DNA from: Mycteria americana
Taxonomy: Eukaryota > Chordata > Aves > Ciconiiformes > Ciconiidae
Reading direction: 5' to 3'
Length of the DNA: 64,000 nucleotides
Assembly (NCBI RefSeq): GCF_035582795.1
Contig: NC_134374.1
Coordinates: 24,815,798-24,879,797 of the forward strand
The notes under the pieces are model-generated. The model did not search any database and was not told the DNA's origin. It saw nothing but the letters and a program-made list of their open reading frames with translations. The first letter of the stretch is position 1, and each line of letters starts with the position of its first letter. A program made the translations under genes and the position numbers. This document shows, one piece after another, positions 3,001 through 48,940 of this stretch.

Positions 3001-6000
3001 GCAATGAGCAAGGGCCAGAACAACCCAGTCTGTCTCCTGAGGTTCCCCTTTCTTTTCCCCATGAAAGGTAACAGGAGAGACTTGATCGTTCTCATGAAAA
3101 TCCTCAATTCACTGCAAATACCATGTAGGGTTTTTACGGCAAAGACAGAGCTTTGGGCAAATTGCTTGAGACGGGTAGACCAGAGAGAGCACTGGTGCCG
3201 GAGGGAGCGGAAGAGAGCTTCGTACCAGCTGGGACAGCTGTAGCTTTTGTGATCCAGGGCAACAAAGAGAAAAACATTGTTCACCACTCAAAGAAATTCT
3301 GGTCTTAAGATCAGAGAAAGTTGTATCAAGATTTCCAGGGCATGTCACTTGGCAGATCACAAGTCTGCAGCTGGTAAGATAAAAGATCTGGAGCGAGTCT
3401 GGGGGTAGGAGGAGTAACATATCTGTTAAATGGGGGAATTACCAGAAGGTTGTTGGTTTTTTTTTTAAGGCCACACCAGTGGTTTTCAGAAGAAAATGAC
3501 TTTCACTGCCAGCTGAAACTGCAGATGGTGTGTTACCTGCCTTCCCGCAAAGCCACCCCGCTGTGCACAGGTGATGGTGCTAATGCCAGTGGTTATCACC
3601 ACGCCCTGCACAGAGAAGGCTACAGAATTCCCAGCTTTCTGTAGTTTTACTGGGGTTTGCTTTTGTCTCTCTTCTGAAGAGAGCACTGGGACCTGTAAAA
3701 CAGGACCTAGGACCCATCTGTTATTCCTGGCAGCAGCCACTGCGGTTGCAGAGATGCAGAAGTACTGAGAGCTGGTCCTTGGCAGGGAGATGCAGCAGGT
3801 ACTCGTGCTGATTTCTGCACTGACGTGTCCCTGTGGATTTGCTAGAATAGCTACTCCTTCCAAAATCTCTGATGTCTGTAAAACAAAAGTAAAGGCTAAA
3901 TAATGATGATCCTGTTCTACGGAGTCCTGCTGTGCCTTAGAAAAAAGCAACGTGGGAAAAATTAGAAGGAAAACACAACATAGAAAGAATGATGCATACA
4001 ACTAAATAAATCATGGAGCAAGCCAAGACATCAGCTGAACTAATGGCTCGTGGTTTCTGCAGTGAAAGTCTGAGAGCTTGGAAAACATCAGCTTGATGCT
4101 TTTTAATTCTGTTCTAATACAGACCTTTAAAGGCAGGAAGGAGAAGCTGAAATCTGATTTTTGAAGGCAAGGGAAGAACTTGAATGTGGGTAGATTAATC
4201 AGAAGACAACGCGGGAATCGGTTGTTAGGTTTAGCGCTGGGTGGGCACAAAATGCTCCACTTTCTGCAGAAGTCATCGTCTCTAACTGGGTTGCTCTGCT
4301 TGGGTCTGCTGCCCTTCATGGAGGACAGGCAGGTACCGAGTACATGGTATACAGTAACCCTACATGACTTGCATGAGTGTAAAGCATTACGGTGCACATC
4401 AGGAAGATCAGCTGGAAGAACAGCTACGAAGGCTGGCAGGCAGAGAGCAGCCATCCAGATTAAGCACAAGGATCTGAACAAACAGCCTTTAACATCAAGT
4501 CCTGGTCAGTCTCAGCCTAAGTTAAACAGAAGCATAGCTGATTTATCTCAGAAGTACTCAGATGGCCAAAAAAGGCCAATTTTTATGATGTGGGATGATC
4601 TTCAGGCAGCGATCATCAGCCATAAATCTCACAGATACGCGCAGGCAGTTTGAACAGAAGTCTGAACTCTCCTGAGAAGAGGCTGGTGTTGGCCATGGGG
4701 TTTTGTGTCCGTCCAAGGTCAGAAGTCACTCCTGAGCTTGACCTCACAAAGCCAACATGCTTTTGATGCAAACAGCCACAGAGCAAACGGATAAACTGCG
4801 TTAGTGTGTTTTATATCTACATGTAGCCCGAGTGTTGCAAATTTGAAACAAAACCTCGTAGAAACAACTTCAGGGTGCTCACAGAAAGTTAGGGAAAGAT
4901 CTGTCTCCACCAGCGGTACCTCTGGGCACTGACTGCCCGGTGACCTGCGTCCCCTTAACTCGCAAGCTGATGGATCAGAAGCAGCACAAAGTGGGGTTTA
5001 AGACGTTGCTTGGCAATGGGTAACAAACTCCAGTCTTTACTGGGCTGTCACTACAGTACTCCTTCAGCTCTCTGCTTCTCGGAACTTGGAAATTTACTGG
5101 AAGAGACCAAAAAGGCATTAATTCCAAAATAAGCACGTCTTAGTTTTGCAAAAGTCCCGCTGGTATCTGCTGTACAGGGTATGTTATTTGTCATCCTCCT
5201 TAGGAGAATTTTTCTCTTCCAGCAGTATTTTCATATTTTGAGCAATCTTCAGACAGATGGAAACAGGCATTTTGTCTTTGGATTTTAAATGCTGTTGTCA
5301 AAAGAGTCAATATGATTATAAAGCTGTGATTTTAATTGCTGCTGTATTGAATTCGAGATCGACACTAATGAATCGTGTTACGGCATGTTCATGGCTGGTA
5401 ACCTCAGCCCGAGCCCAGTGGTGCGGCTTTCCCTAGAAGCTGCTGACCAAGGACTACAGCCTGGGCTGCAGGTTGTCGCCAGCCTCCGCCACCGCACATC
5501 ATAGTACCACTGCATTTTAATTATCAGTGATCACAAGGGAGATGATCTTGTCTGTGATTTTTTTCTTTCTTTCTTTTTTCAGGCAAAAAGCTTTCACGCT
5601 AGTTTCCTTAGCTGCTTCCCTTTCCTTTCCCGACCCAGATGACAGGATGACCTGCACATAACCCATCTCCTCTTGCGATCAGCAATCCGTCTTCTGAAGA
5701 ATAGCTGACAGCTGAGCAAGTTTGCACAAGGCAGCGCTTCCCAGAAACAGAGACCGTTCCCATCAGCAAGTGACTGGGGCAACAACAACTAGAGATGCTT
5801 CTGCTACACATTCTCCCCAAACATCATTCAGCGCGTGTGCCACCCTGGTTTGTTCACAGATTTAGGAACTTTCTGCAAGTTTCTTCCCTCTTCCCAGCAC
5901 ATTCAGAGGAGAGGACTGTAGAGCCGTCGTCAGGACAGAAAGGCCATGAGAGGGTCATCTTTTGAATGACTAAACTCAGTTGTAGGGTATTTGATACATC

Positions 6001-8820
6001 TAGTGTGAGACAAAAGCAAGAATCTTGGTATGTTAAGCCCACAAAAATGAATATATTGTTTATTCAAACTCAGAATTAATAGGTCAATACAAAAGTAAGG
6101 AACTATTTTCCATAATAAAAAACCTGAGCATGGTTTGTTCTTTATAGGCCTTTACTAACTCTGACTTTTGAGTGGGTTTTTGCAACAAGGGCAGGTTTCC
6201 AGTAGCGTCTGGCTTGAGACTAGCAAGACTCATTTTTAAGTGGTGAACCTTTGGGGTTAGAAATGAGGAGACAGGCTCAGACTACCTTTCAGCCCTTCCA
6301 ACCCTGCTTCACACCAAATGGTGTCTGAAGCTTACACATCTCAGTGAAAGGAAAGTGGAAAACAAAAGAATATATTTCTACTTAGCCTCCCGCCCTCAGC
6401 AGGCTTCTCAGCCCATCTACAGGTGTTCCACAGACACCATCCCAGCACCTCAGATGTGTTCCTTTCCTTCCATTTCCATACTCTCCTTCATGTCATCTGC
6501 CGGGTTTTTGTCCTGTTTCCCAAATCAGAAAGAAGGATATTTCGCGGTTCCTCAGCATGGCTGTACAAATTAGTTTATTAAGCATTAGAAATTAAGTTCT
6601 TGTTCATTGTAAGATACTTTACTTTGCCTGGCATCATAAAAGAACATGAAAATTAATGCCTCTGGCAAGAAACACCCCTATTTTACCCAGATGGAGCTCA
6701 GCAGCTTTGGTACTACAGAGATTTAAGAACCATTATTCTGAAAAAGGACAATCAGTTGGCACAGTTGCTGTTTCATGCTCCATTGTACAGCTAGTCTCAC
6801 CTTACACTCTTCTCTGGTCGCTTCTTTTAATTCAAAGTTGTTGTGATTTCATTGTTGTGTTGACTCAACTCATCTGGCTGCAAAAGAAGAAAGATAGGAA
6901 TTATGTTGAAGGCCTTTTGGGCTGCATCTCCAGAGCTACTTGGTCACTTATTGCTGATGGTCTTCCTCTCCACCCAGGGAGATCTTGCAGATGAACGTGC
7001 CTCGGACTGATGGGATGCAAGAGCAGCAGGTACAGAAATGGATGGCTGTGGGCTGTAAATCAGACTGACGCGGGCAGAAGATGGCCTGCGTGGTCTGAAC
7101 TGGCACAGAAGAGCACGCTGGTAAACAGGAAGGCAACGGTCCTTCGCTGCAAGCTCGTTGGGCAACGCTTATCAGCAGATGAGATGGGAGGGACACCAGC
7201 AAGGAGCAGGAAAGCAGAAAGAGCCTGAGGCACTGTCTGAAAGAGGAAGGGTGATGGATTAAAGTCTTAAAAGCAATTAAATAGCTGAAGACATCTGAAA
7301 TCAAGCCAAAGAGGTTTAATACACTTCACTGAATCTAACAGCCAGAGATTTGCAATGTGATTTAGAAACGCACAGGCACGGGAGAGGAAGAGGGAGCAGG
7401 CAACTGTCAGAGGTTATTAACACTAGGAAGAGAGAATAATTATTGGAAGTGATACGTCAGGTTAGAACTGGAAATAATAGTACCTTGGAATAACTTTCTG
7501 GTAGAGAGAGGTCCCAAGAGGATTTTGGTTTCCAGGAGTTAGGTCAACATATGTGAATATGTAGAATGTGTGTCTGTATGTAGCTGAAGCTGACGGGAAA
7601 AGTTTGCATGCTCAGGTTTTAAGGGAGAAATCCCTTTTCCCAGGGCTGCTCCTTATTTCTGTTCTGTGGGAGATTAGTTTAAAAGTGGAATGTTAGGAGA
7701 AAAGTCAGTCCCACGGTTTTGCTCAGACTTGAAGGCTAAACGTTTTTCCCAAGAAGCAGCAGAGCAACTTTTCCAGGAGACTTTTTTATTTCTTTGCAAT
7801 GTTCACGGTCTGCACTTGCCAAAAATGTTTTGCCTTGTAAACTGGAAGAAAACTAAATCTAGAGCTGTGTAAGATCTCACATAGTGCGAGGAAACAAAAC
7901 CATTCCAGTAAAATTGCGTCCTCCGCTGCCTTCGGTGCACGCCAGGCTGTGGGTGAGCGGGACCAGGGGTTTACTCCCCATCTCGGAGCAGGTACGGAGA
8001 CATCCTGGTGCCCTCTCCAGTCCTGCACCCACGTCAGGAGGAATCGGGAGCGTTTCTTCCTGCAAAATTTGACTTTGACAGGCACGGTAATAAAGGTGAC
8101 TTGTTTCCTGTGTGTGCTTCATTGCATGAAATACAGTAAAGCACACACAGGGCTCTGACTGCCGAGTACCTTTTTTGATCTACCGTTGAAAATCATCTTT
8201 GCCAGCCCATTAATTTTACCACTCTCCTTGGATGTTATCCAGGCAGCTTCCAGTGCACTTTTGACTTTCTAATCACAAAGACTTGTTTCTTGCCTGTCCT
8301 TTGGCCTCCATCTTTTATCTGCCTGAGAATGATTTTTTGAATGAGCCCAACTTGAAAAAACATATAATTGGTTTAAATTGCTTTAAATGCATTATTAATT
8401 CTTTCCACCATAGCAAAAGAATATCAAAGTGCAAAACCTTAAAGTGCATTTCAAAATATTGAGGATCACATAACATAATTAATAAAGCGAAAAAAATCCC
8501 AAAGTTTTTGGAAAGATATTGCACCACTGGTTTGACAAGAAATGATCAGCCGTAAAACTACGGCAGCCTGTGATTAGCATTTTTAACAACGGGACTAGAT
8601 TAGCCTGAATGTAGTGATTAGTGAAAATATCCAGGTACTAAAAACATTGCTGAATGAAAAATAATGCGTGGTTTACAGTGGCAAATTCGTGTGTGGTTTG
8701 TAGCTATTTCACTTCAAGGCAAAGAGACTGGGTACTTGGTGTCTAAGGGGGGCTGAGCTGAGATGCCTTAGTCCAAGAATACCAGCACTCTCCTAACCAA
8801 GCTGAGGAAGAGTCCTGGTA
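1..8820. other. Intergenic DNA, no gene recognised
   Basis: No open frame in this stretch resembles a known protein, and none shows a convincing exon chain. The longest frames (for example minus-strand 3486-4001 and 4011-4481, plus-strand 4180-4653) have lengths expected by chance in 64 kb. Low-complexity tracts are a G11 run near 217-227, a second G11 run near 1880-1890 and a TTTC-rich patch at 5558-5580. I see no RNA gene. Confidence 0.6.
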
Positions 8821-8879: not shown

Positions 8880-11800
8880 CATATTCATGGCAATTTATGT
8901 GCATGGTCTGTAGAGGACAATTTGAGCCTGTGTATTAAACAGAGCTTATGCTCGGCTGGAAGGAGGACGCTCCTCACTGTGTCGTCGGGACAGCAAGGTG
9001 TCTTCCATCGCAGTCAATGGAAAGTCACCTCACGTTGTCTGCCCGTGTAGGCAGCCTGCGTGACGTGAATTTAACACGTGTAGAAGGTTCCTGATGGCTT
9101 TGGAGGCTGCAGTTGTCTCTCCCAGGATGAGATATGTAACAGTCAGGACTAACGTGGTCCCCTCCGCTTTGTGCTTTACATGAGCCCTGAAAGTGAAAGA
9201 CATCATTTCACAATTTTTTTCCCAATTTCTGCAATTCCTATTTACCACAGAGGCTTGAGATCTTGCTGGTATCACGCACTCGTGCCCCACTGAGTGCCCG
9301 TCGAGCGTTAGCAGCCCGGCACCATTGCCAGGCATTTCAGCCCGGACCGAGCCGTGATGCTTTCTCCCGGGAGCGCTGCGGGTGAGCAGGCAGCGCTGCC
9401 TTCGCCGGAGCAGCGAGGGGGTTACAGCTGGGGCGGACATCAAAATGCACACTGCTTTTGAGCTAATCTACAGCAAATACCCGTTCATGAAAACTCCTGC
9501 AGGTGCCCATCGGCAGATCCTGACACAACACCTGCTGTAAAACCCCCTGGTTTTAAGTCCAGGGGAGAACAAGTCTTTTCACCAGGGACTGGCAGTTACA
9601 CATGGAGCTGAGCAAGGAGGAGCATAAAGGAAGGAAAAGTGCAATCCTCTTCAGTCCATTTTTCTCCTATTTTAGAGAGATTCTTAAATCTACAAATACA
9701 TGCCTTACATGCTAGCTAGCTCGCTCGGTAAAAGCCAAAACCAAGTTTTCATCCTGCAGGCAGTGGCAACACACAGAGCAGTTGAATCACGGCAGAACAA
9801 CAGTCGCATCTTTCTCCAGTGAGGGTTTGTTCGGTTGTTTTTTTTTAAAAAAAGCACCCACTTCTCAGCACATCAGCTGCAGAGAGCAGCAGGTTATGCA
9901 ACTGAAGGGCTTGATTCACATCCCAGGGAAGGCACTTTTTGGGGCTTACAGCTGGCCTGGACCAGGCCCATCATTTGGGGGCTGAGACCACACCTAATTA
10001 AATCCAAGTGGAAAGCATGGGACAGAAGCATGGGAAGTTTTGAAGCAGTGGATAACACCTGGATGAGAGCACAAGCAGCCCAGCAGGGTGGTATATGCCA
10101 CACAACTCATCTCTCTGACCGAGAACATGAATTATTTTTAGGCAGTTCCGCTACTGACACTCAGAAAATAAGAGGATATAATTATTAAAGCCCAAGCTAT
10201 TTCATAAAACTTCCCGGTGATATCTTCTGCAATCTGTTCTAGAAGCAGAAATACAAGTGTTGTAGGCGAACACCAGTAGCTGTAAGAGCATCTTTCACAG
10301 ATTCCTGGTATATGGGGTCCCCTTATCTGAATCTCAGATTTGAACAAAGATCCTACTTAAGTATGTCATCATTCATCAGGGGAGTTTCTCTTTACATTTT
10401 TTCCTTTAAAATCAACAAGAAAAAATTAAAAAACAACCAAGTTGAGCACTTGAATGCTCAAAGAACAGCAAATTTCTAATACTATTTCCTCTGGTGATTT
10501 TAACCAAGTTCCTTTGCATATCTGATGATCTTTATTCATCATTCTCATGCTGCATGCCTCAATTTTTGTTGACTTAAATTCTCATAATGCAATTGCATAT
10601 CCTACCCTTGCATTAGTTGTTAGACGAGGCAAGATGTTTATCTGTTGCTATGTTGCCATTAAGTGCTGCAGTTTATTTTGATTCGAAGTTGGTTGTTTGG
10701 CTCATTTTCTGTTTGGGTTGGCATTAGCTCCCCTGGTATTTTTGTTGGTTGACAAACCCCTCCGCGCAGGCGTGGGAGCGCGTGTTTCGCCATTGGCATG
10801 GCTTGCAGCCTGCTTTCTCCTTTCTCTGAGAGCTTGACTAGGCTTTTGCTATGTTAGTTTTGCTATTTTTTTAATTATATCCTTCAAAGATCTTATTTCT
10901 CTCCCACTTCGTGCAGGGTCCTTCTGATACCAGTCCCTACCTATTGCGTTCACTCCTTCGTGAATGTTAGAAGCCCAGGACTACTGAGCTCCAAGGATGT
11001 CCACCAGCAATCTCAGCTTAGACATGGACATGGGGCTTTCCTTGTATGAACCAGTCAGTAACAGCATCGTCTTCCTGACAGGGATTATTCATACGACCTA
11101 AATATAGTCCAGAAATCAAGGGATGTTATCCTAAGAAGAAATAATAAGAAAGATGCTCTTTGGATGAAAGAGTGAAGATGTTTTCTGTTCCAGATCTGTC
11201 ACAAGTTGAGATCAGAGTACAGAAGCTATGGATATAGGACAGTAACTACTTTCTTCATTTAAAAGTCTGCCACATAAAGCGCTGTGGCAATTGCAAATTA
11301 AAAAAGGAAAGTGTCAAATGAAACAGTAGAGACGACTTACACCGGGCACATGGCCAGTGCACACAGGTCACAGGACAGATCTCGGTGGCAGAAGCCATTC
11401 TGTAGATTGGCACGCCACAAAGCAATACAACACTGCAGCAAAAGGATGCCGGCTCGTCACCCAGAGCCCTGCCTTTATCCCAAAAGTCCTCCGCTCGCTG
11501 CTCCCTGGCAATCCCATACATCTCGGGTGGAGTGTGTGCAAAGTTTCTGAGAGCCAGAAGAGCAGATGCGTGATGGCCCTTCTGAAACATGGCGATGCTT
11601 CCCTCAAGCTCACGTTGACGCCAGGCTGTGGACTAGCACGCGTGTGCACACACGTGCACGCAGAAGGCTGGACACAACGGCTCTGGTCCCATGTCCTTTT
11701 CCCCCTTTTTCTTGCTTAAGGCAAGCGGGATGCTTGCAGCTCCTCTTCCCGTTGTCCTGCTCGTGCAGTGACCTACATCCAGTGGAGACAACTGGCCTCT

Positions 11801-25800: not shown

Positions 25801-26744
25801 GCAAAAGCAAGCCCAAGAAGAAACCCTGTGCTAGGGAGTTGCCTCGATAGCGCGGATGTCTCCAGACCAAGAGGTTTGTCCTCCGTGACATGAGGACAAA
25901 CCTGCCTGCAGCTTCCCGCTCCGTCTGCCGGGTGTTGCAGCAGCATCTCTGCCCAGGCAGCGCCAGGGAAACCGGAGCCCTGCAGCATCCCCTGTGCTGC
26001 AGTGATCCTTCCTGTTCAGCAGATGTAATAGGCCATATCTTTTCCAAAGCTAGTAATTACCCATCTTTATTAGCATAGCAAGCTTAAAAAATGGTGCTAC
26101 CTGTGAGCAGAGGAGAGCAAAGAGGAATTTGGGGAGCTGACAAATGTCTGGTGGTGCACTGAGCAGCCTCTAGCTTGGGGTTTTTTAATTGATTTTTTTT
26201 TTTTTTTTTTTTTTAACTGGAGAAATGCTTGTTTGACCACATCCTTTACCGTTTCAGAAACCTTCTTGCAGTGACCTGTCCTTGGGCAGGCAGGCGTGGA
26301 GGTGGAGCACGGGGAGACAGCCATTTGCCAGGCGATGCGGAGAGGCAAGACTGAACAATCATTAGGGACCAGATCTGGTCTTTCTATTTTAAATTGCATA
26401 GTGCTATTGCCACCTGCATTATTCCTCTTTGCGGTTTTAATGAGTAGCTACCTTAGCTTGCGGGGAGTTAGAGCTTTTTGGTAATTCAGTGGAAGAATGC
26501 CGCCAGTACTGAGGACTTACAAAAGTGTGACTCTCATCTTTACATCACCAGTTGTTGGTACCAGGTTAAGAAAGGTGGCTCTAGTGGATAGTTATAATAA
26601 CACGGATCTGTGCAAATCCAGATCCCTTCCGAGCTGTTCTCTCCTGTAGGAGAGATAATAGGATTTTTCCCTCCTTTTTAATAATCATATTTTATTTTCA
26701 TGTGCTGCTTTACAGAAAAACTCACCTGAGTTTTTCATCCTTAG
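22831..26744 (+). other. Probable intron between CpG island 1 and the CYSLTR1 coding exon
   Basis: The sequence is non-coding in appearance, with T-rich runs near 24121-24134 and 24160-24168 and a T22 run at 26193-26214. An acceptor-like sequence (TTTTCCTCTTACTTTAG) ends near 25631 and could introduce an alternative 5' exon, but nothing confirms it. The region ends with the acceptor TTTTTCATCCTTAG at 26731-26744. Confidence 0.4.
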
Positions 26745-26793
26745 GCCTGACATTCGTCGCCAGGTGGAATTGGTGCCTCGCCCAGGCAACGTG

Positions 26794-27828
26794 ATGGTGC
26801 TGTTCGATAACCTGTCGTGTCATCACGCCATCGACGACTTCCGAAACCGAGTCTACTCCACGCTCTACTCCATGATCACCATTATGGGCTTTGTCGGCAA
26901 CGGCATCGTGCTGTACGTCCTCATCAAAACATACCGGCAGAAGACGGCCTTCCAGGTGTACATGCTGAACCTCGCCGTGTCCGACTTCCTCTGCGTGTGC
27001 ACCCTGCCCCTGCGTGTCATCTACTATGTCCACAAAGGGAACTGGTTCTTCAGTGATTTCCTGTGCAGGGTCAGCTCGTACGCACTGTATGTCAACCTGT
27101 ATTGTAGCATTTTTTTCATGACTGCGATGAGCTTCTTCCGTTGCATAGCCATCGTTTTTCCAGTCCAGAACATCAATTTGGTAACGGAGAAGAAGGCTAA
27201 ATTTGTCTGCGTTGGCATCTGGATTTTTGTCACCCTGACAAGCGCTCCCTTTCTGCGAAATGGGACGTACCAACATGGCAACAAGACCAAGTGCTTCGAA
27301 CCCCCAGAAGACTCTCACAAGACAAATCTAGTGGTGATCCTGGATCTTATTGCCCTATTTGTGGGTTTTCTTTTTCCCTTTATTGTCATAACTATCTGCT
27401 ACACCATGATCATAAGGACCTTACTGAAAAATTCCTTGAAGAAGAACCAGGCTAACCGCAAGAAGGCGGTCTGGATGATCATCATCGTGACAGCCACCTT
27501 CCTGGTCAGCTTCACCCCGTACCACATTCTGCGTACGGTCCACCTCCACATGCTGCAGCTGAAGAACGCCAGCTGCGAGGACGCCATATACCTACAGAAA
27601 TCGGTCGTGGTAACGCTCCCCTTGGCAGCTGCCAACTGCTGCTTTGACCCACTTCTGTATTTCTTCTCAGGGGGCAACTTTCGGAAGAGACTTACCACGT
27701 TTAGGAAGGCTTCTTCCTCCAGCTTAACACAAGCCTTCAGGAAAAAGTTCTCCGTAAAAGAGAAAGATGAGGAACCCTTTGGAGAAAGCCATAGGGAGAA
27801 TGGAAGGGGAGATGTGGTCCCTTCATAA
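26794..27828 (+). CDS. CYSLTR1: Cysteinyl leukotriene receptor 1
   Basis: This 344-residue rhodopsin-type GPCR binds cysteinyl leukotrienes (LTD4 above LTC4) at the plasma membrane and, in mammals, signals mainly through Gq and calcium. Seven hydrophobic segments are visible. Landmarks are GN in TM1 (residues 35-36), NLAVSD in TM2 (59-64), Cys91 and Cys167 for the TM3-ECL2 disulfide, FRC (115-117) in place of DRY as in the mammalian receptor, a TM6 proline at 242, and DPLLY (285-289) in place of NPxxY. Cys9 and Cys261 could form the second disulfide. Possible N-glycosylation sites are Asn6, Asn156, Asn163 and Asn258. Human CYSLTR1 is about 337 residues, so length agrees; the tail after about 305 differs most. 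The start at 26794 is the first ATG in the exon and has G at -3 and +4. The frame is open further upstream, but only a GTG is available there. Confidence 0.95.
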
Positions 27829-28289: not shown

Positions 28290-28929
28290 TCAAACAGCCG
28301 CTAAATTATTTACACAGCAGAGGCCAGGATACTTTCTGCCCTGCTCCTAGCTGCTTCTGCTTTGGATTTCAGTTTTCAACTTAATTATGTGTGTAAGACT
28401 TGCAGGGTTGGTGCCTGGGTCTGCAAATCCAGGAACTCAGGCTTAAGCCCCTCTCCCACCCCAAATGAGCAGCTCTTCAGACATGCTGTCATGGGGAGCA
28501 GATCTGCCAGCATTTTCTGAATATCTAGAACAATCTTGTCTGTGGGAGCAGTTTTAAAATTGCGGTATCCTAGTGTGCGTTTGAAGCTTAATTCAATGGG
28601 ACTGGTCCTGTAAGTGATGGCTGCAGGATCTGGATTACCACTCCAGTTCTTTAGGAGGTTTTACCTAAAAGTAGAGCTCTGGGTGCTCAGAGTCCAGTGC
28701 AGGATCACGCCTGCCTTTCTGAACTATTGACCATATTTTTAAAAAAAATTTTGAAAAAATTAATGCAGAAGTCCTTTTTAAAAATGGCTACATAGCATAT
28801 TTGATCCTGTTCAAGAGTGTTCACCTTGCAGAAAAGAGGCAACCCAAGGCCCTTGGAAAGACCTCTAAGAAGACCTGGAGATCAAGAGTCTCATTAGTCT
28901 GGATGAGACATGAGTGAATCTTATCTTAT
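28290..28929. other. Intergenic DNA, possible relic of an ancient amniote repeat
   Basis: No gene is visible. Around 28590-28640 the sequence TTCAATGGGACTGG, followed by GGCTGCAGGATCTGG, resembles a motif common in old amniote interspersed repeats. The match is short and I would not name a family. Confidence 0.3.
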
Positions 28930-30446
28930 GACACACACAAGTCTATGGGGCCGGATGGGATCCACCCAAGGGTACTGAGGGAGCTGGCAGAAGTGCTCAC
29001 CAAGCCACTTTCAATCCTTTATCAGCAGCCCTGGCCAACCAGGGAGGTCCCAGTTGACTGGAGGTTAGCAAATGTGACGCCCATCTACAAGAAGGGCTGG
29101 AAGGAGGATCTGGAGAACTACAGGCCCATCAGTCTCACCTCGGTGCTGGGGAAGGTTATGGAGCAGATCATCTTGAGTGCCACCACGTGGCACGTACCAG
29201 ACAACCAGGTGATCAGGCCCAGCCAGCATGGGTTTATGAAAGGCAGATCCTGCTTGACCAACCTGATCTCCTTCTACGGCAAGGTGACCCACTTAGAGGA
29301 TGAGGGAAAGGCTGTGGACCTTGTCTACCTGGACTTCAGTAAAGCCTTTGACACGGTTTCCCACAGCGTTCTCCTGGAGAAACTGGCTGCTCATGGCTTG
29401 GACGGGCGTACGCTTTGCTGGGTAAAGAACTGGCTGGACGGCCGGGCCCAAAGAGTGGTGGTGAATGGAGTTTACTCCAGTTGGTGGCCGGTCACCAGTG
29501 GTGTTCCCCAGGGCTCAGCACTGGGGCCAGTCCTGTTTAATATCTGTATCGATGATCTGGACGAGGGGATCGAGGGCACCCTCAGTCAGTCTGCAGATGA
29601 CACCAAGTTGTGTGGGAGTGTTGATCTGCTGGAGGGCAGGAAGGCTCTGCAGAGGGACCTGGACAGGCTGGATCGATGGGCCAGGGCCAACTGTATGAGG
29701 TTCAACAAGGCTCAGTGCTGGGTCCTGCACTTGGGCCACAGCAACCCCATGCAACGCTACAGGCTTGGGGAAGAGTGGCTGGAAAGCTGCCTGGCAGAGA
29801 AGGACCTGGGGGTGCTGGTCAACAGCCGCCTGAGTATGAGCCAGCAGTGTGCCCAGGTGGCCAAGAAAGCCAATGGCATCCTGGCTTGTATCAGAAACAG
29901 TGTGGCCAGCAGGACTAGGGCAGTGACCGTGCCCCTGGACTGGGCACTGGTGAGGCTGCACCTCGAATGCTGTGTTCAGTGTTGGGCCCCTCACTCCCAG
30001 AGAGACATTGAGGGGCTGGAGCGTGTCCAGAGAAGGGCAACGGAGCTGGGGAAGGGTCTGGAGCACAAGGCTGATGGGGAGCGGCTGAGGGACCTGGGGT
30101 TGTTCAGCCTGGAGAAAAGGAGGCTGAGGGGAGACCTCATCGCTCTCTACAACTGCCTGAAAGGAGGGTGTAGAGAGGTGGGGTCGGTCTCTTCTCCCAG
30201 GTAACAAGTGATGGGACGAGAGGAAATGGCCTCCAGTTGCGCCAGGGGAGGTTTAGACTGGATATTGGGAAATTTTACTTCACTGGAAGGGTTATCAAGC
30301 ACTGGAACAGGCTGCCCAAGGAAGTGGTGGAGTCGCCATCCCTGGAGGTATTTAAAAGATGTGTAGACATGGTGCTTAGGGACATGGTGTAGTGGTGGGC
30401 TTGATGATCTTAAAGGTCTTTTCCAACTTAAACGATTCTGTGATTA
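28930..30446 (+). mobile_element. CR1 LINE, 5'-truncated, about 1.5 kb
   Basis: The element covers the later part of ORF2 (reverse transcriptase onward) and the short 3' UTR, ending in CTTAAAGGTCTTTTCCAAC and ACGATTCTGTGATT. It lacks the 5' UTR, ORF1 and the endonuclease domain, which is the normal outcome of incomplete target-primed reverse transcription. Apart from one missing base, the coding part is open, so the copy is not very old. It shares diagnostic bases such as TTTTACTTCACTGGAAGG with the 0.3-kb copy at 35.1 kb, so the two are probably from the same subfamily. Confidence 0.95.
28945..30392 (+). pseudogene. CR1 ORF2 reverse transcriptase fragment, one frameshift
   Basis: Counting from the ATG at 28945, reverse transcriptase motifs appear in order: YRPISL (59-64), LDFSKAFD with the first catalytic aspartate (129-136), [11 protein letters not shown] (185-195), and SADDTK (216-221) where the family usually has FADD or YADD. 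The first frame stops at 30204 after 419 codons. At 30180-30183 there are four G bases where the 35-kb copy has five. Past that point, a shifted frame stays open with the usual CR1 C-terminal region to a TAG at 30390-30392. The fragment lacks the endonuclease and the start of the RT domain, so it cannot be a working element. The ATG is simply an internal codon of ORF2. Confidence 0.9.
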
Positions 30447-35364: not shown

Positions 35365-37863
35365 ATTCAGAAACGATGCGTAGGACATAACCACCCTTAT
35401 TCTATCTGAAGTGTCTTCATATAAAATGCTTGCAGGATGTGAGAAGCAAGCAACCCTTCAGTTTAACAAGCAATAAACTCCAAGTACTGGCAATAAAGAG
35501 ATATTTCCTGCTCTGAGCAAGGCGCTTTCTGCCCCCGCCATCCGCAGGAGCCTGGGCCCGTGTTCTGGGGCTGGAGGGGCTCGGTGAAAGGGGTCGGTGC
35601 AGCCCGTGGGGTAGCTCCACTGCCTGAATCCCCCCCCCAGCTGCAATAGGGGTCTGCGCGCCCAGATGCCGCAGGTCCCTTAGCAGGAGCTAATTCTCAC
35701 GCTAAATTCTGATTTAGCATTTTTTTCCCCCATTTCCACCGCGGTCTGACATTAGAAGAGGGACTTCTTCCATATGGCAGGAGGGAGAACACTGGGCTCT
35801 TTATCCTTCACGTACGGCAGCGGAGGGTATAACCTGATTGCTGAGTACATCAGATTTTAAAATTCTATCAGTGTAAGCAATAAAATGTCTTAGGAACGCT
35901 ACTGAAAGCAAACCTGAGGCACGAAGAGCCCGGCCTGCCACTCGGGGTTACAAATCCATCTCCCGGCGCACGGGTCGGCAAGATTGGGAACTCAGCCCTA
36001 CTTCTCCCAAACTATTAATTTCAGCTCTGCAAGTGGCCACACGTACAAACAAATATTTGGAGTATTTGCAAACTTCACTTGAGGGTGAAATGTGCCCGTT
36101 TCTCTCCTGTCAATGCGGCTTCTTACGCTTCAGAGGAAGCCGGGCTGCTCTCGGAGCAAAGCGAGGACCCTTTGTTAGTTCAAGAAATATATTCCAGATG
36201 GATATTCACCGGGGCGGGGGTGGGATGAAGGGGAAGAGGGAGCAAACCCACCCTATTTTGGTCATTAATAAAAATTCCACTTCCAGGAACACTGCTGCAT
36301 GTCTCTGCTAGGGATGTTGAAGACTAAACAGAGTTTGTTTTCGGTTTAGCCCATTGAAATCCCTTTATCTGTGAGGAGCGCGTCTCTGCGATGCTCTGCT
36401 TGAGTTTAACTTCAACCAGGCTCCGGGCAGCCCCCGTGAAGCCCCCAGATAAGGCCTTGCGGGATCAAGGGCAAAAGGCACAGCATTGCCCTGTGTAACC
36501 ATTTCGGGAATCCCTCTCAGCACGAGGCAGGAGGTTTCTGCAGATATTTTGTCTAGCAAGCCCGTGCCGGGGGTGCTGCAAAGGGCTGACTCGAGAGCCG
36601 CTCGCTTTTGCGGCTCTCAAAAGGCGAGCGTGTGGCCTGACTCTGCTGAAGAATTGCATCTGTCCCCGGAGTCAGCCGAGGCTTTATTTCCTTTCTGAGT
36701 AACCATCTGAAATGAGACAGCCCCTACTCTCTGCCCTTTTCTCCTTCCACGTTACTCATGGCAGGAAGCCTGCTGGGGTGACGAGCACACGCTGCTTACA
36801 TGAGTGAGGGCTGAAAAATGCAGCAGTGCCCTTTCACCACCGTTTTTCAAGGAAAATGGAATGAGAAGTTCCCCAGAATTGGCCTTGAGGCTCTGCCTCC
36901 TGTCAGCAGCGTCTCCTCCCGCACGCCTCCGTGTCCTTCATCACCCCGACTTACTATGCCAGAGGTTCACAGGACTTCAGAGCTGGTTTATGTTCCTCCT
37001 CGCCCTTTTTCGGCTGCTCAGGTGGGAAGGGCATCGCTGCAGCCCCCCTACCAACCTAGAGCAGCATCCTCCCCCTGTGCAGGAGAGCTCGTGGTCCCCA
37101 GCTCCGGGCTGACCCCGGGGCAGCAGCCTGCTCCCTACCCGGGCAAAGGAGACCAGCGAGGCTCTGCGTGCGCAGTCCAGCCCCCGTGACGAGGTGGCCC
37201 GGAAGACCTGCCCCAGAGAAGAGCCACGAGCCACGCACGAGGTCTGCTCGGTCCCGCGCTGTGCGGGACTCGAAGCGGGCAGAGGCTTTGTGCTGAATTC
37301 AGGTGGATTTTCTGCTTCGGGATGCAGCACGATGACTCCGGTTAGGGTTAATCATATCCTGTGGTAGGAAAAACAGGCCTCGGGGATGTGAACTAATAAA
37401 ACAGAGGCACTGAGAAATGGTTGCCAAAGCCCGGGGGAACAGCTCTGCACATCCTGAGGTCCCGGCTACTTTTATCTTATGATCTACCAGGAGCCTGTTC
37501 AAAACTGAATTGCGCTGCTAATACTGAGCTGACCGTGGAGTTTGCTTTCACTGCAATTAAAACGAAAACTAATCATTACAATCTGGGGTTGTTCTGAGGG
37601 TCAGTAAATGGCCCTGGTGCATCTGCGCGGGCTCTGCGTTTCCGGCTGGTCCACGGCAAAGGCCGCTGTAGCAGGGCAGGAGAAATCGACAGCGATAGAA
37701 AGCGGCACCAACGATTCAGCCGTGGCATCCGCCCAAATTCAATTTCTAAGCAGAGTAACTCTTTCCCATGGTGGGAAGTTCTGGTGAAATAACCCCAGCT
37801 CCTTGCAAACGTTCAATATTACACTGAGTTTACATAAATATAAAAGCACTGATCTCACCAGCC
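35365..37863. other. Intergenic DNA, no gene recognised
   Basis: No exon, repeat family or RNA gene could be named. Two overlapping plus-strand frames at 36804-37189 and a minus-strand frame at 36977-37330 lie in GC-rich DNA and look non-coding. Confidence 0.5.
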
Positions 37864-38007
37864 GGTTAGACAAAGCAGGTGAGATACCTGAATCAAAATC
37901 AAGAGGTTCCTTGTAGACGGTGTGGCCACAGGTACAGTATTTTGCTCCTTTCTGTCTGCCTTGATGCAGGAGGACTATCACAGAGAAAGCTTTTCCAGCT
38001 GTGATGG
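37864..38007 (+). repeat. Left arm of 144-bp inverted repeat
   Basis: This arm is the reverse complement of 38315-38458 with only two differences in 144 bases and no gaps, found by base-by-base comparison. Paired coordinates always sum to 76322. The differences are T37921 against G38401 and G37937 against T38385. Identity stops sharply at both ends. Read on the minus strand, the arm is an open 48-codon stretch including GKAFSVIVLLHQG and CTCGHTVYKEPLD, which I do not recognise. Confidence 0.97.
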
Positions 38008-38314
38008 AAAAATTTTCCAGCTTTTCCATCCATGGAGGCTTCCAGCGAGGGGTGTCTGAGCTCACAGCCTCCTCCACGGCCGCTGACCCTGCAGCAGGGT
38101 TATATATTTTGATTTTCCCCTGTTTATTTCTACTGGATGTTCCTCTGAAACAACTGTGCTCCAACGAGGAGTGCTGTAGCAAGAGACCGGTTACACTTCA
38201 CTCTCATGGAGGGCACGTTCTGTTGGTAAAGTGACTCTTCTTAGTTAGAAGGAAGTCGTGAGAGTTAATTGATAGTTGCGAGGGGGAAAAAAAAGCAGAA
38301 ATCTAGGGTATTAG
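38008..38314. other. 307-bp spacer between the inverted repeat arms
   Basis: The spacer is mostly unique. Its first bases form, together with the end of the left arm, a perfect GGAAAAATTTTCC palindrome (38006-38018). A TTTTCCAGCT decamer at 38013-38022 repeats the same decamer of the left arm at 37991-38000. Such short repeats at the junction fit a template-switch origin of the inverted copy. Confidence 0.8.
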
Positions 38315-38458
38315 CCATCACAGCTGGAAAAGCTTTCTCTGTGATAGTCCTCCTGCATCAAGGCAGACAGAAAGGAGCAAAATATTGTACCTGTGGCCAC
38401 GCCGTCTACAAGGAACCTCTTGATTTTGATTCAGGTATCTCACCTGCTTTGTCTAACC
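38315..38458 (-). repeat. Right arm of 144-bp inverted repeat
   Basis: The right arm is the partner of 37864-38007. On the + strand it is open in the same 48-codon frame as the minus strand of the left arm. It differs at one amino acid (alanine for threonine in the CTCGH-VYKEP segment, from the 38401 change) and has one silent change (38385). Confidence 0.97.
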
Positions 38459-41400
38459 AAAGTATTCTTTGGGCAGCAAAGAGAAGTGTGTACTCCTCCA
38501 CCCCACTCCCCCCAAAAACCCCCAAGAATAGCGATAATGAAAAGTTAAAGTTGAGAAGTAATCAAGAATTCAGACCTGAGAGGCCCAACAGCTGAAGTTT
38601 CAATCCCAAATTTAATTCAGTTACACAAAAAAAAATATGTAAATGCTTCAACCCCTGGTTTCCCTAGAAAATTGAAATCTTTACCAATTACCAGCTCTTT
38701 ATCCAAACTACAAAGATTATGTCAATACAAATCACCCATGCTGCACTCTCCCGGGGTTGTTGGGAGAGGCAGGAGATGTGGGGCTGTTTGAGAAAATAGT
38801 AAATTGGGGGATGTGTTTGTTTCTTTTTATTTTATGTTAAACTTCAGGGGCTTTTCTTTAAGTTCAGAGAAGAAACACCGCAGAACAGCATCGCCTTTAC
38901 CATCCCAGCTTGCATAAACACAGTTTAGGCTCCTTTTGGATGAAGGGATCTATATTTAAACACTCATGCCTTTTATGATTGTTTTTGCTGTATCCTATAT
39001 ATAAATACAAACCTACGTATCCAAGGGCAGCGGTGAAAAGGCAGCTACGCTGTAGGTGAACAACAGACCCCAATGTTGGCAAGACGTTTCCTCTCCCCCT
39101 CTCCCAAAGACGCAGGGGGTCAGGGTCCGTTTTCCTGGCAGGTTCCCCTAGAGAGGCACCGACAGCATTTTGTCCGTCAGAAAGAGGATTTTAAAGCCTC
39201 GGCCACGTAACCTTTAATAAGACGGGGGATTAGCAAACCTCGTTGAGTGACGCTGTGACAAAAGGCCAGGCTTGTGCATGTTTTACCCTCGCCTGCGTGC
39301 CCCACGCTGCTGGCACGGCCGCGGCACCCCGGCAGCACGGTTTGGGGGGAAAGGCTGAAGTCACTGCAAAGAGGGGAAGTGAAAAGCATATTGCTTCATT
39401 TTTTGATGAAACAAGAGTCCTGTACTTCTCTCAAGTACGTGCTCCGTGGTTTGTTTTTTAGAGAAATGGCTGGAATAGACACTGAGGACACACGTGTAGG
39501 TGGGAGAAGGATTCGGGTTGCCGCTTACAGGTGGCCCCCCTGGGGTGACTGTCCACGCTAGATCCTTCACAGGTAGAAATATTTCATTTTTGGAGGCTTT
39601 CCTTCAGCTCCCTTTGAAACGCTTAGGATGAACAAGAGCAAAGAGCGTCATTTCAAACTTGTTATACCTAACACTACGCTAGTTCAGGCTGTGCGACGGG
39701 GAATCCGCTCTCGGGTCTCCTCCCTGACGCATTTCGCAGCGCGTGATGCCGCTTTACCCAGCCTCATAAGGAACGGGTTGTAAGTGGGATGCAAAGCGAA
39801 ACTTTTCCATTTGCTGGGTTTAACGGAGACTGGCATCTGCACCCGCCGTGACGCGGGGCCTCTGTCGCTGCGTGGCGGCCAGGGCGATGCTCCTCTGCGG
39901 GGCTTGGCTGAGCTGCCCCTCCCTATAGCAGAGGAGCGTTTGGCTCGGGGGTCTCAAATCAGTTCCCGGCAGAGAGCAGCTTCTCACCCCTCTCTCACAG
40001 CTCTAACAGAAAACTGTCCTCCATCGCTGCCGTACTTCTCTCACCCCCATTACCACACCAACAGAGTAACCTCTAACGAACTCGGGCTCCTAACTTCCCT
40101 ATGGAGCAGGGAGCGACTGTTATTGCCAACGTGTAAATGAAGAAGGGAGGCAGTGACGGACGCCGGAGCACCAGGCCACTCTCCACCACCTTTTCATCCC
40201 GAGCTCACCACCAGCCGGACCGTGGTGGCAACCAGAAGCATCGCCCAGCCGGGCTCCAGGCGCGAAGGCAGCTTCAGGGCACGCTCGCAGCAACGTAACT
40301 GCTCCGTACACTGCTTACACCTCACTTTCTTTCTTCTGCTTTTCTCGCAGATGATGGGAAAATTCACTGCTGGAGCATCAGAGACGAGCCCCGCGTCGAT
40401 CCCCGTGGACGACCTCAGCTGGCAGCTGCTCGGGGCCTCGCTCGCAGCCCCCGGAGCCGCCAGCCCCTTCTCCAGAGCACGGCGTTGGCAGGAAACTCGG
40501 CCAAGCGAGCACTCCGCATTTCTGCAGAGGAGCTTTCGGAAAGGCTGTGTAAAACCTCCCCTCTTCCCGCAGTCTCCATTGCAAGGCGCTCACAATAGCT
40601 GCAGCGAGGAAGGCAGCGCAGATTTTTTTTTTCATAGCAGGAGAAGATGGGGAAGGTGGGAAGAAGCCAATTTTTTTTTTCTTTTCTGCTTTCTCTTGCA
40701 CAAAAGGGTCCTTATTCATTTTAATAGCAGGTTCTCTCACACAGCAATCTGCTCTGTCAGCCAGACAGCGGAGAAAGACTCCTTATGCAGCTACCTCAGG
40801 CAGAACATTGCTGCTTAGACCTTCTCGTCTGCTCTCTGAGGATGGGAAACTAGATCCATGACAATCTCAAAATGGAGAGCATTAGCCCGGAACAAATAAG
40901 TAGATTGCAATAATGGATACAATATGGAGGTTTCCTCGAGGAGCCAATATTTGTATTCTTCACAGCTGCATCTTTTTCTTTTTCTGTTTTTTTTTTTTTT
41001 TTCTTTTTAGCCTGAAGTGCTCCCAAATGCTTCATGCCATGTGGCCTCTTCTTATTTGCATCAAAGACCTGGTTCATCGCTGCTCTGCACTTTGATAGAT
41101 TACGTACGCTCCTGCAAAGCAGATATAAAATGCTCGTCGGGGAGCACGGTGAGCCTCTTCTGCAGCGCTGCTGCCACCGATCCGACGCGAAGGAGCCGGT
41201 GCCCCAGCTCCGACGTGTCTGCCGAGGGCTGCGGCTGGAAGAGGAACCCCCAACGCAGAGCAGGGGCCCTCGGGCCTCCATCAAGTGAGGAAAAAAAAAA
41301 AAAAAACCCAAACAAAAAAGGGAATGGAAACAATAATGAGGAATGGGGTTATTGTAGGAGAGAGCAAGTAAAAGAGGTTGTTCGGGGACAGTGAAGAAAA

Positions 41401-44400: not shown

Positions 44401-47400
44401 TGTGAACGTTACTGGACTCAAAAGAAAATCTCTAAACTTGGTTTAATTTCTTCACTTAAAATGGCATTATTTTTTTAATGACATAGCGGACAAAACTACA
44501 CGGAGCGTGGAGCGGAGTGCTGGTATAATCCAGTGTCGCTGATGGTATCACCTCTTTGTTGAGTGTTGATTAACCTTAAATCATTTCTGCTGGTGATGAC
44601 TTGTTTCGGGCGTTCAACAGCAAACAAACAGCAAATCCTCCGGAATCGGGATGAGCTCACCTGCGCACGCAGCAGAGCAGGCATGGTTCACCTACCTGCA
44701 AGGGAAACTCCCGCTCCCGATGCCCTACAGGCTTTTCCCAGTGTGCTTCTTTCAAAATATACAGCAGAGAGTGCTGGTTTGCTCTCGGTGGACCAGATCC
44801 TCCGCTGGAGAAAACACTCCTAATTCCACTGGGGTGGATGGAGCGATGCCAATACATACTGGCGGAAAATCTGCTCCAGTATACACGGTTTACTTTTGAG
44901 GATCTAAGCACATACGCTTCCAACAAAGTGCTGTTTGATAAAAGTTTGTTTGCCAGGTTGCCTTGCCTCGGTCCCTCCTAAAGTGTACACAACAGTATTT
45001 TGTATATAATAAGAGAAAATGAAGCGAATGTGTTCCAAGACCTCGTTCGCAGCTCCTAATGAATTCAAGAGCTGGGAGGCGTTGCTAGACACTAGTTAAA
45101 ATAACCATAATCATCATCATTACTGCCATGCAAGTATGGAAAAAAAAAAGTTTTTATTATGGGCTGGAACTAGAAATCCAGAGCAGCTGCTAATCATCAC
45201 GATAAGTGGGTTGCTGGTTTGGAGGGGGTTTGTGCATCCAGGTATTTACTGTGGCCAACTGTAAGAAGCAGTTTTTTGTTATCCAAGCCTTTCAGCAACC
45301 TCCCCGCCCATAGGAATATGTTGTAAGGTTGGAATATATTGTAATTGTAATATTCCTCTTACCTCTCTTTTCTCCCCTTTCTTGTCAAAGGCTTTTCCTT
45401 TCCATTTATTTAATATTTCTCTCTTCCCCCCACCCCTTTTTTTTTATTTATTAACTCACCTAGGCAGTTGAATTAGCAAAGAAAAAATAGAAATTACAAT
45501 TCAAAATTTTCTAATGGAAGAATGAGTGTGTTTTTGGCACTGCTTCTTCCCATTGTTTTTTTAAGACAGACTCTCCTTAACTCTCCTTTTCCATTCCAGA
45601 GACTGCCCTTCCTTTATAAGCCCAGATTTCTTCCCATTTGTGCTCTCTTCCCTCCCTCCTGACTCATTTCCACTTCCCATTTTGGCTGTTTCTTTTCTCT
45701 TTCCTCTTCCTTTCTCCAAATGTTCTCTGATCTTATATTCTGCTATTTTTAATTCCTTCTTCCCAGGCCTGGATCCACCCCCCCACCCAGTATCATTGGG
45801 CTGTGTGCCTCTCTACCCTCTTCCTCTCTGGACTGAAAGGACAGCCTGGGCAATAATTTCCTCAAAATCCAACTTTTTTTAATCCAGCGACTCGAGATGA
45901 GCATTGCCTGCCTTGGTGTGGGAAACCTGGCATCACCACTGTCCGTGCACAGTCCTTATGGCTCTCCAGGAATTTCAAAATATAGTTCAAGCTCCCCTCA
46001 GACTTGTTCCATGCTGTTCTGTAATTTCTGACCCATCTAACCAGGGCCTTCTTTCCAGGCAGTTTGGTCACTATGCTACTCCTGCCAAATATTTCTTCTG
46101 TGCAGCTTTGCCATCTGGAACCGCCCGCCTATGTGCCTTCAGCCTCACCGACTGGCCGTAGAGTTTCCAGTTTCAGCTGAAAAAAAATTTTCCCTTACTG
46201 TCATCCCATAGCAATCTGAACGTAGGATGTAGGCAGCAAACATTCGGTCATTTATTTTCCACGGTGTGGGAATAGTTCTCGTACTTGAAGCAATTTCAGT
46301 TTTAAAGAAGCCCTGGAGCTTGTGGAATGTGGGCAGTTTTCAGATCTTTCATCCTAAGTCTCACTAGCAACGACTCTGTAAGCTTTTCCATCAGACATCA
46401 TATTTGCTAGAATTACCAGTGACTACCTCGCTAGGGTATAAAGTATATTTAGAATGGAAAATTAAGGGGGAAAAAATGATTTAATGAAAGGTTGGAGGGA
46501 AAGGAAAAGGATTTTTCGGAGTGCTAAAATAGTGTATTATTACCTACAAAGGAATTCTTGTAATAATCAAAGCTGGGAGGTCCAATAGCCTTCAGTGCAA
46601 AGAATGCTCAGCATTCACCCCCGACGACCTTCTTTATTCTGAGTACCAGACACAGTACGCTCATGACGAGGAATCAGACCTTCGTATATCACACAACACC
46701 ACTAGTCATAACTTTTAAGGTTTAGCTGGCAATGAATAAATACTGAGCCTGCAAAGCCAAAATAGTCCTTGAACTGCTGCCTTCAGCAGCAACGTTCATT
46801 TAATGCGATGTATTTCAAATTTCCAAATCGCATCCTGATGGGTCTCTTTCAGAGGATCTCCCAAAAATTAAGTACAAATATTTGACTTCAGAAATTAAAT
46901 CCCCGGGGCACTAGATACGCTTCGCTGCAGATTAGTTAGAGCCTGTGGAGTTATAAGATTCCTGAGATGGAGTGCTGAAGATTCCAGGAATTCTCTCAAA
47001 GGTGAAATGATTAACTAACCTTTTGTTCCTAGAGCACAATAATGCAGAAGGCAGGTCTGCATTCACTGAGTCCCATGCTGGACTTGTCTTCTACCTTTTC
47101 TGAAGTGTTCACAAGCCTTAAATCTGAGTCCAAAGAATTTTGGACTTGTCAATGAAATAAAGAGCTAAGTATTAGTGACAAAAGTAAGATATGACTCAAA
47201 ACACAGGAGCAGCTTATTTTTCCTCTGAATCTTTTACTGAAGATTTCAATCTATTTTATTGGCACAAGGACTTATTAATTTCTTTTCAACCATAATAAAA
47301 CATGTGATGTGCTGATCCACACTATTCCCCAGGGCAAAAGTAGGAGCTGCTGCTTTTCTGTACCAGAATCAGTGCAGTAAAACTTGTGGAAGAGGTAGAA

Positions 47401-48940
47401 AGAAGAGGAAATTTCAGTGCAGAGACCATGACAGAGATTTTGCCAATTATCTCATTCAGAGGGAAAGGTTTCCCCTGCCTTCTCTACCTGGAATTGGCCA
47501 TCGAGCCAGCTACCAAATTTGCTTTTCAGATCCCAAAGGGCATTACAATGAGCTGTTCAGACAAAGAAGCTCTCGTATCCGTTCAGGAGCTTAAATAAAT
47601 ACAGGTGGCAACAGAGATCAGAGAATGAAAAGGTAATGGGCTCCTTGCAAAAGTCGTCTTTTAATGCACCAGCAGTGTTATTCTGCACCAAATGTACATT
47701 TTCAGCGATGCTAAAGCATGATGATAGCATTTGCTTGTTTTCTCCCCAAAACAAATGTAAAAAAAATGTACAATTCAAAAACATTAGTGAAGTCTTGTCA
47801 TAGCTAGATGATCAAATACAACAAAAGAGAGGAAAGGGACAACGCTTCAGCAAGTGCCGAACGCACAGATGCAATCTGAGGATGTTTTTTATCTGTTATT
47901 TCACTGTTTGCTATCAATTTGCAGAGAACATATTCATCATTTCATGGGCCAATACGAGTAAAATTAATTGTAAAGTTACACTGAGTGTTTTTGTGGCATT
48001 TATTTAGCAAAGTAAGTTATTAGTCACCTAAAAATTCAGCAGACACCACCACCTCTGGCCTTCCTTAACACTACTTGCTTATTTAAAAAGATGGATGGGA
48101 ATTTATTTTAGTCCTGTTTAGCATAGGTTGTTCAGTATGGCAAATCAACCACTTCCACTAGTCTCCAGAGAGAAATTCTCTGACATAAACAATTTCTGCT
48201 ATTCATTATAAAATTTCCTATATTCATTAAAAATATATCTAAGATCAGTCCAGGGGTAAACACATGGATATTTGTTTTAAAAGGTTAGTTTCTTCACATG
48301 TATATAATATAGCTTGCATGTAAATGTCCGGTTTGACCTTTTTCTTCTAAACTGCTGTGATCCACAATTTACGTGGAGCTTGTATGAGAGCACGGCCGTC
48401 ACATTTATTTTGCATCCACACAGAAGCTGACTCCCATGCTGTGCGCAAAATATTCCTTAAATCACCGCTTCACAAATGTGCCTCAAACTTGCATAAAAGA
48501 CGTTAATGGAAACGTATCGGTACAAACTGTCCAGTGGATATAAGCTGAAGAGCACAAAATTTATTGTGGCGGAGGAAATGGATGTGCCAGGGAGGCTCTT
48601 CAGCCTGCGCTGTGTTTCCTCAGCCCCTGCCCTTGATCCTTTTTGGAGCAGGGCTCGGCGGCCCCGAGGGCTCGGGATGCTCTGGCAAGGAGTAAGAGCA
48701 GACCTGGAGAAGGGAGCTGCATGTCAGGATACCTGGCTCTGCGTTTTGACAAGCCAGTACCGAGATCTTGCCTTCCTCTTCGCTTTGCCCGCTCAAACAG
48801 TTGGCGTAATACCCCTGGCTTCTTCTGGTCATCAGCTTTAATGCTTTTTATATTATTACACAGTATTAGAGTTCGGGCCTTTGGTCTTTGCACGTGCTGT
48901 GACCATCTATCCCCCTAAGTTGGGGGGGGAGACGAAGCGT
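38459..48940. other. Long intergenic stretch, no gene recognised
   Basis: No known exon was found. An acceptor-like tract (TTTCTTCTGCTTTTCTCGCAG) ends at 40350 inside a 221-codon plus-strand frame, but no supporting donor or similarity is seen. A 260-codon minus-strand open frame covers 40850-41632 and includes translated T and A runs. 45.1-48.3 kb is AT-rich. A T-rich run lies near 40988-41002 and an A16 run at 41291-41306. I name none of these as genes. Confidence 0.5.

Follow-up and report, generated by a model that had tools for sequence, protein, structure and literature searches.

The window analysed in this study, a stretch of 64,000 nucleotides from Mycteria americana (C10:24815798-24879797), contains a near-perfect inverted repeat, which with high probability arose as a recent, local, single-copy inverted duplication of apparently non-coding DNA via a fold-back or a template switch. 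Such inverted duplications belong to an already described class of mutation, and the origin of this one most likely lies in an ordinary slip of DNA copying or break repair. The locus is of interest as a clean single example of a near-perfect long hairpin arising in non-repeat DNA; its importance would be greater only if RNA from the locus were found.

Structure of the inverted repeat

When the two arms were aligned with each other, 142 of the 144 positions were identical (98.6%), without gaps and with a spacer of 307 bp between the arms, and the coordinates, arm length, identity and spacer length given in the original prediction were all confirmed (Table 1). A chance match of the arms is excluded by the E value of 5.8e-67 obtained in self-BLAST. 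Both differences between the arms are transitions, one of them being of the TG/CG type.

The ends of the arms are sharp and the flanks are unrelated. Compared in inverted orientation, the 300-bp outer flanks showed no extra homology, their score being reached by 79% of random window pairs, and the inner halves of the spacer, likewise inverted, gave a score that was not significant and was reached by 11% of such pairs. The sharp ends noted previously hold on both the outer and the inner side. Moreover, comparison of the arm with the spacer and with the 500-bp flanks revealed no older homology (22-74% of random pairs scored as high), and no target-site duplication of 2-10 bp was found around the arms. 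Within the arm there is an imperfect palindrome, ATCACAG...CTGTGAT (window 37977-38005), which encloses AAAGCTTT, so that each arm also has a small hairpin near its inner end.

Table 1. Features of the inverted repeat (window positions) and the three other inverted pairs, designated L006, L014 and L019, found in the background scan
Feature	Position	Strand	Basis or remark
Left arm of inverted repeat, 144 bp	37864..38007	+	Arm alignment; the two arms are the only places found in the assembly
Right arm, reverse complement of left arm at 142/144 positions	38315..38458	-	Arm alignment
Spacer, 307 bp	38008..38314	.	No other assembly match at E up to 1
Arm mismatch 1, T at 37921 versus C (reverse complement of 38401)	37921	+	TG/CG, CpG-type transition; U-G pair in + strand RNA
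Arm mismatch 2, G at 37937 versus A (reverse complement of 38385)	37937	+	Transition; G-U pair in + strand RNA
Hairpin stem, 9 bp perfect, 10-nt loop, straddling inner boundary of left arm (38007/38008)	38003..38030	+	Candidate stall or fold-back point
Inverted pair L006, arm 725 bp, 86.2% identity			High-copy repeat
Inverted pair L014, arm 140 bp, 77.1% identity, spacer 408 bp	9175-9857 (L014 numbering)		High-copy repeat
Inverted pair L019, arm 119 bp, 75.6% identity, spacer 443 bp	5870-6548 (L019 numbering)		High-copy repeat

Copy number in the genome

The assembly searched comprises 1,348,465,905 bases in 279 contigs, with contigs of chromosome scale (C1, 223 Mb; C10, 27 Mb). Across the whole 1.35 Gb the 144-bp arm had two matches, both within the inverted-repeat locus. 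The region 37264-38858, in which the repeat is flanked by 600 bp on the left and 400 bp on the right, matched only itself and its own arms genome-wide, and the spacer used alone matched only itself in the assembly, even at E values up to 1.

The genome search skips very common words and repeats can therefore be missed; hence positive controls were run with an arm, whole or in part, from each of the three other inverted pairs. Genome-wide, 118 bases of L019, 136 bases of L014 and 301 bases of L006 gave 2083, 2632 and 5675 first-look candidates, respectively, of which at least 40 were scored as matches in each case. Since the control pairs yield thousands of candidates, the search does detect repeats. 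The possibility of an interspersed-repeat pair is ruled out, because the arm has no genome copies beyond the two arms while the controls have thousands of candidates. The earlier observation that the arms resemble no known repeat was borne out, in that they are not copies of a repeat family, and the genome-wide search with one arm that had been suggested with it led to only two places, both at this locus, and not to the many copies of an ordinary repeat pair.

For background, the window and 20 stretches of 10 kb (264 kb altogether) were compared with themselves in search of inverted pairs whose arms measure at least 40 bp and are at least 75% identical, at a spacer of up to 5 kb. The 20 stretches scanned belong to a set of 200 placed at random in the first 24 Mb of contigs C1-C10. 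Four inverted pairs were found in these 264 kb, a sample from which no useful rate of such pairs can be derived. The window pair was the only one above 87% identity and the sole one of the four without other genome copies. L014 and L019 are similar in arm length (about 120-140 bp) and in spacer length (408 and 443 bp).

Proposed mechanism of the inverted duplication

With no target-site duplication, no other copies and sharp ends, a local event of reverse-complement copying remains as the explanation. During replication or break repair, a 3' end would have paired with its own strand in a fold-back, or moved to the complementary strand, and would have been primed on a few inverted-complementary bases, for which the inner arm ends GATGG (left) and CCATC (right) are candidates. 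About 144 bases would then have been copied outward, and the rejoining to the other side would have required hardly any homology, if any at all. As for the two transitions between the arms, they would be ordinary substitutions added later. The locus is probably recent and neutral.

Two features at the inner boundary of the left arm bear on the priming step. The hairpin stem GATGGAAAA/TTTTCCATC is one of nine stems (at least 9 bp, loop of 3-12) in the 64 kb, and simple arithmetic on this count puts the chance of such a stem straddling one of the four boundaries at about 1.5%. The 40 bp inside this boundary also contain a 10-base match to the arm, which was equalled by 1.5% of about 3000 random 40-mers from the window; the same word-match test gave 48%, 16% and 91% at the other three boundaries, and the corrected signal at the left inner boundary is about 0.06. 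The hairpin and the 10-base match, which were recognised post hoc and are not independent, are weak indications, compatible with fold-back priming but no proof of it. An 8-bp inverted match at the outer left (37852-37859 with 37878-37885) was equalled by 16% of random 40-mers and was not used as evidence. As to the direction of copying, two hints concern the left arm: judging from the TG/CG difference, a CpG seems to have been lost from it, and judging from the boundary hairpin, its last bases seem to be native at their place. Neither hint conflicts with the left or with the right arm being the copy.

Comparison with published events

Previous studies described similar events in other organisms. 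Fold-back inversions at breaks in yeast were reported to measure 2 to about 150 bp, mostly under 14 bp, and in the fold-back events described there the priming microhomology was inverted and imperfect and spanned 10 bp, the loop measured 41 nt and the other joint had 0-5 bp (PMC11724301). The locus studied here shares with the yeast duplications of that report the size range and the little homology at the outer joint, and it has candidate inverted priming bases at the inner end. However, at most about 5 bp of priming is suggested here, the loop would be 307 nt, and the event is a historical one in another organism. In great apes, template switches often result in perfect inverted repeats, the copied length being reported with a median of 12 and a maximum of 128 (PMC7954356). 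These switches, together with the RNA hairpins treated in PMC8794818, have in common with the locus that a local reverse-complement copy gives a near-perfect inverted repeat in one event, whereas the arm of 144 compares with the maximum of 128 in the great-ape set, and the locus is known here from one assembly.

With its 144 bp the locus lies near the upper size limit of the template-switch and fold-back events in these reports, either at that limit or slightly beyond it. No paper combining an inverted repeat, a bird genome and template switching was found in the literature search. As for the spacer, rearrangement in wild-type yeast was reported to fall about 20-fold when the spacer was lengthened from 12 to 200 bp, and widely spaced repeats were reported to turn unstable in long single-stranded DNA (PMC10164571). 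The persistence of the locus is compatible with its 307-bp spacer. If a sister species proved to be without one of the arms, the event could be dated and its joints would become visible.

Age of the duplication

If between 5e-9 and 1.5e-9 substitutions per site per year are assumed, values that are not specific to this species, the two differences in 144 positions would correspond to an age of 1.4 to 4.6 million years, the Poisson limits over the assumed rates being 0.17 to 16.7 million years. Yearly rates near 0.16-0.17e-9 have been reported for the snowy owl and the griffon vulture (PMC9995274), and arithmetic on that reported rate would place the point estimate at about 41 million years. 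Since the estimate spans so widely with the rate, the description of the duplication as recent depends on which rate applies and presupposes that no gene conversion has taken place.

Predicted RNA hairpin

It had been proposed that the locus, if transcribed as one RNA, would form a very long hairpin, and the predicted folds agree with this. The RNA of 715 nt folds at -395.1 kcal/mol on the + strand, compared with a mean of -201.8 for 20 shuffles, and at -402.9 kcal/mol on the - strand, compared with a mean of -203.8 for 20 shuffles, so the strands are about equal. In the + strand RNA the duplex of 144 bp would be unbroken, both arm differences being accommodated as G-U pairs; for two transitions, the chance that both give G-U pairs on this strand is one in four. 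Any inverted duplication folds in this way, and the stable hairpin is therefore no argument for function.

No Rfam match at the gathering threshold and no tRNA (ARAGORN, bacterial code) were found in the 64-kb window, and Pfam searches at E values up to 0.1 gave no match for either of the two long open frames that cross the arms, one of 108 aa on the + strand at the right arm and one of 152 aa on the - strand at the left arm. Across the left arm itself, one frame of the minus strand stays open (47 codons), but 58% of random 144-mers from the window (2898/5000) carry at least one open frame. A coding origin of the arm was rejected on this chance and on the lack of a Pfam match for the arm frames. 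The search of the whole assembly with the full arm gave no third match, and hence no long homologous target for an hpRNA or endo-siRNA. The analysis indicates no function of the duplication.

Alternative explanations

That the pair is a foldback artefact of the assembly or the library is highly improbable. In a read foldback the copy is expected to extend as far as the read does and to leave almost no spacer. Here the 307-bp spacer is unique, the flanks are unrelated and two transitions lie inside the arms, all of which speaks against an artefact, as do the chromosome-scale contigs. The outline of a 595-bp unit with long inverted ends would match a non-autonomous DNA transposon with 144-bp terminal inverted repeats, but neither a target-site duplication of 2-10 bp nor a second copy in the assembly was found, and this explanation is scarcely credible. 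The original prediction had named gene conversion between the arms beside recent inverted duplication. Duplication stands as the best explanation with the only two assembly matches lying here, while gene conversion between older arms is equally compatible with the identity, which by itself fits youth and conversion alike. The inverted repeat could accordingly be older than it appears, if gene conversion or recurrent template switching between the arms had preserved their likeness; the correction of one arm by template switching from the other has been described in the reports cited above (PMC8794818, PMC7954356). However, ragged and partly diverged edges would be expected of such a repeat, and no decayed similarity was found past the arm ends. 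We regard it as unlikely.

A functional long-hairpin locus, whose dsRNA would serve as a substrate for ADAR editing or as the precursor of siRNA or of a young miRNA, is very unlikely. The unbroken duplex of the + strand transcript would suit it, and in chicken the CR1 repeat was reported to carry over 35,000 hyper-edited sites, editing being tied to long dsRNA made mostly by repeats (PMC5625713). As repeat-derived dsRNA is edited in chicken according to that report, editing would be plausible here in the event of transcription, but would be no sign of selection. On the other hand, the empty Rfam and Pfam searches, the 1 in 4 chance of both differences being G-U, the nearly equal folding of the - strand and the fact that any inverted duplication yields such a fold argue against function, and the prior probability that the hairpin would have a role in A-to-I editing or as a source of siRNA is low. 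The fly hpRNA loci giving endo-siRNA (PMC10317233) likewise have arms capable of forming a long hairpin; a locus of that kind would entail transcription, small RNAs and a target gene, whereas here there is a predicted hairpin, with an arm that lacks a third genome match. The more specific proposal of a newborn bird long-hairpin RNA gene, which would have been created by one fold-back event and would feed its 144-bp + strand duplex with G-U-compatible substitutions into ADAR editing or an endo-siRNA/miRNA pathway, is accordingly conjectural, and its probability is slighter still. A local inverted duplication through fold-back or template switching is the reading that we prefer.

Surroundings of the locus

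Open stretches of 90 codons or more number 169 in the window, and nine of them were scanned against Pfam. Among these nine frames there was one convincing host gene, located about 10 kb upstream of the repeat (26662-27828, + strand). It is a single open frame coding for a rhodopsin-type (class A) receptor (7tm_1, E 2e-54), and the best match of its product among solved structures is cysteinyl leukotriene receptor 1 (6rz4, E 1.3e-141). A reverse-transcriptase frame at 28918-30204 on the + strand, open over 428 codons (RVT_1, E 1.8e-30), is presumably part of a CR1-type LINE, and its open length suggests a fairly young copy. At 47316-47594 on the + strand, a short match to thrombospondin type 1 (ADAMTS-type) narrowly passes the Pfam cut-off; it is apparently isolated, being the sole one in a strict six-frame motif scan of the window. 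CpG-rich stretches are present at 22.0-23.0 kb and 48.75-50.75 kb.
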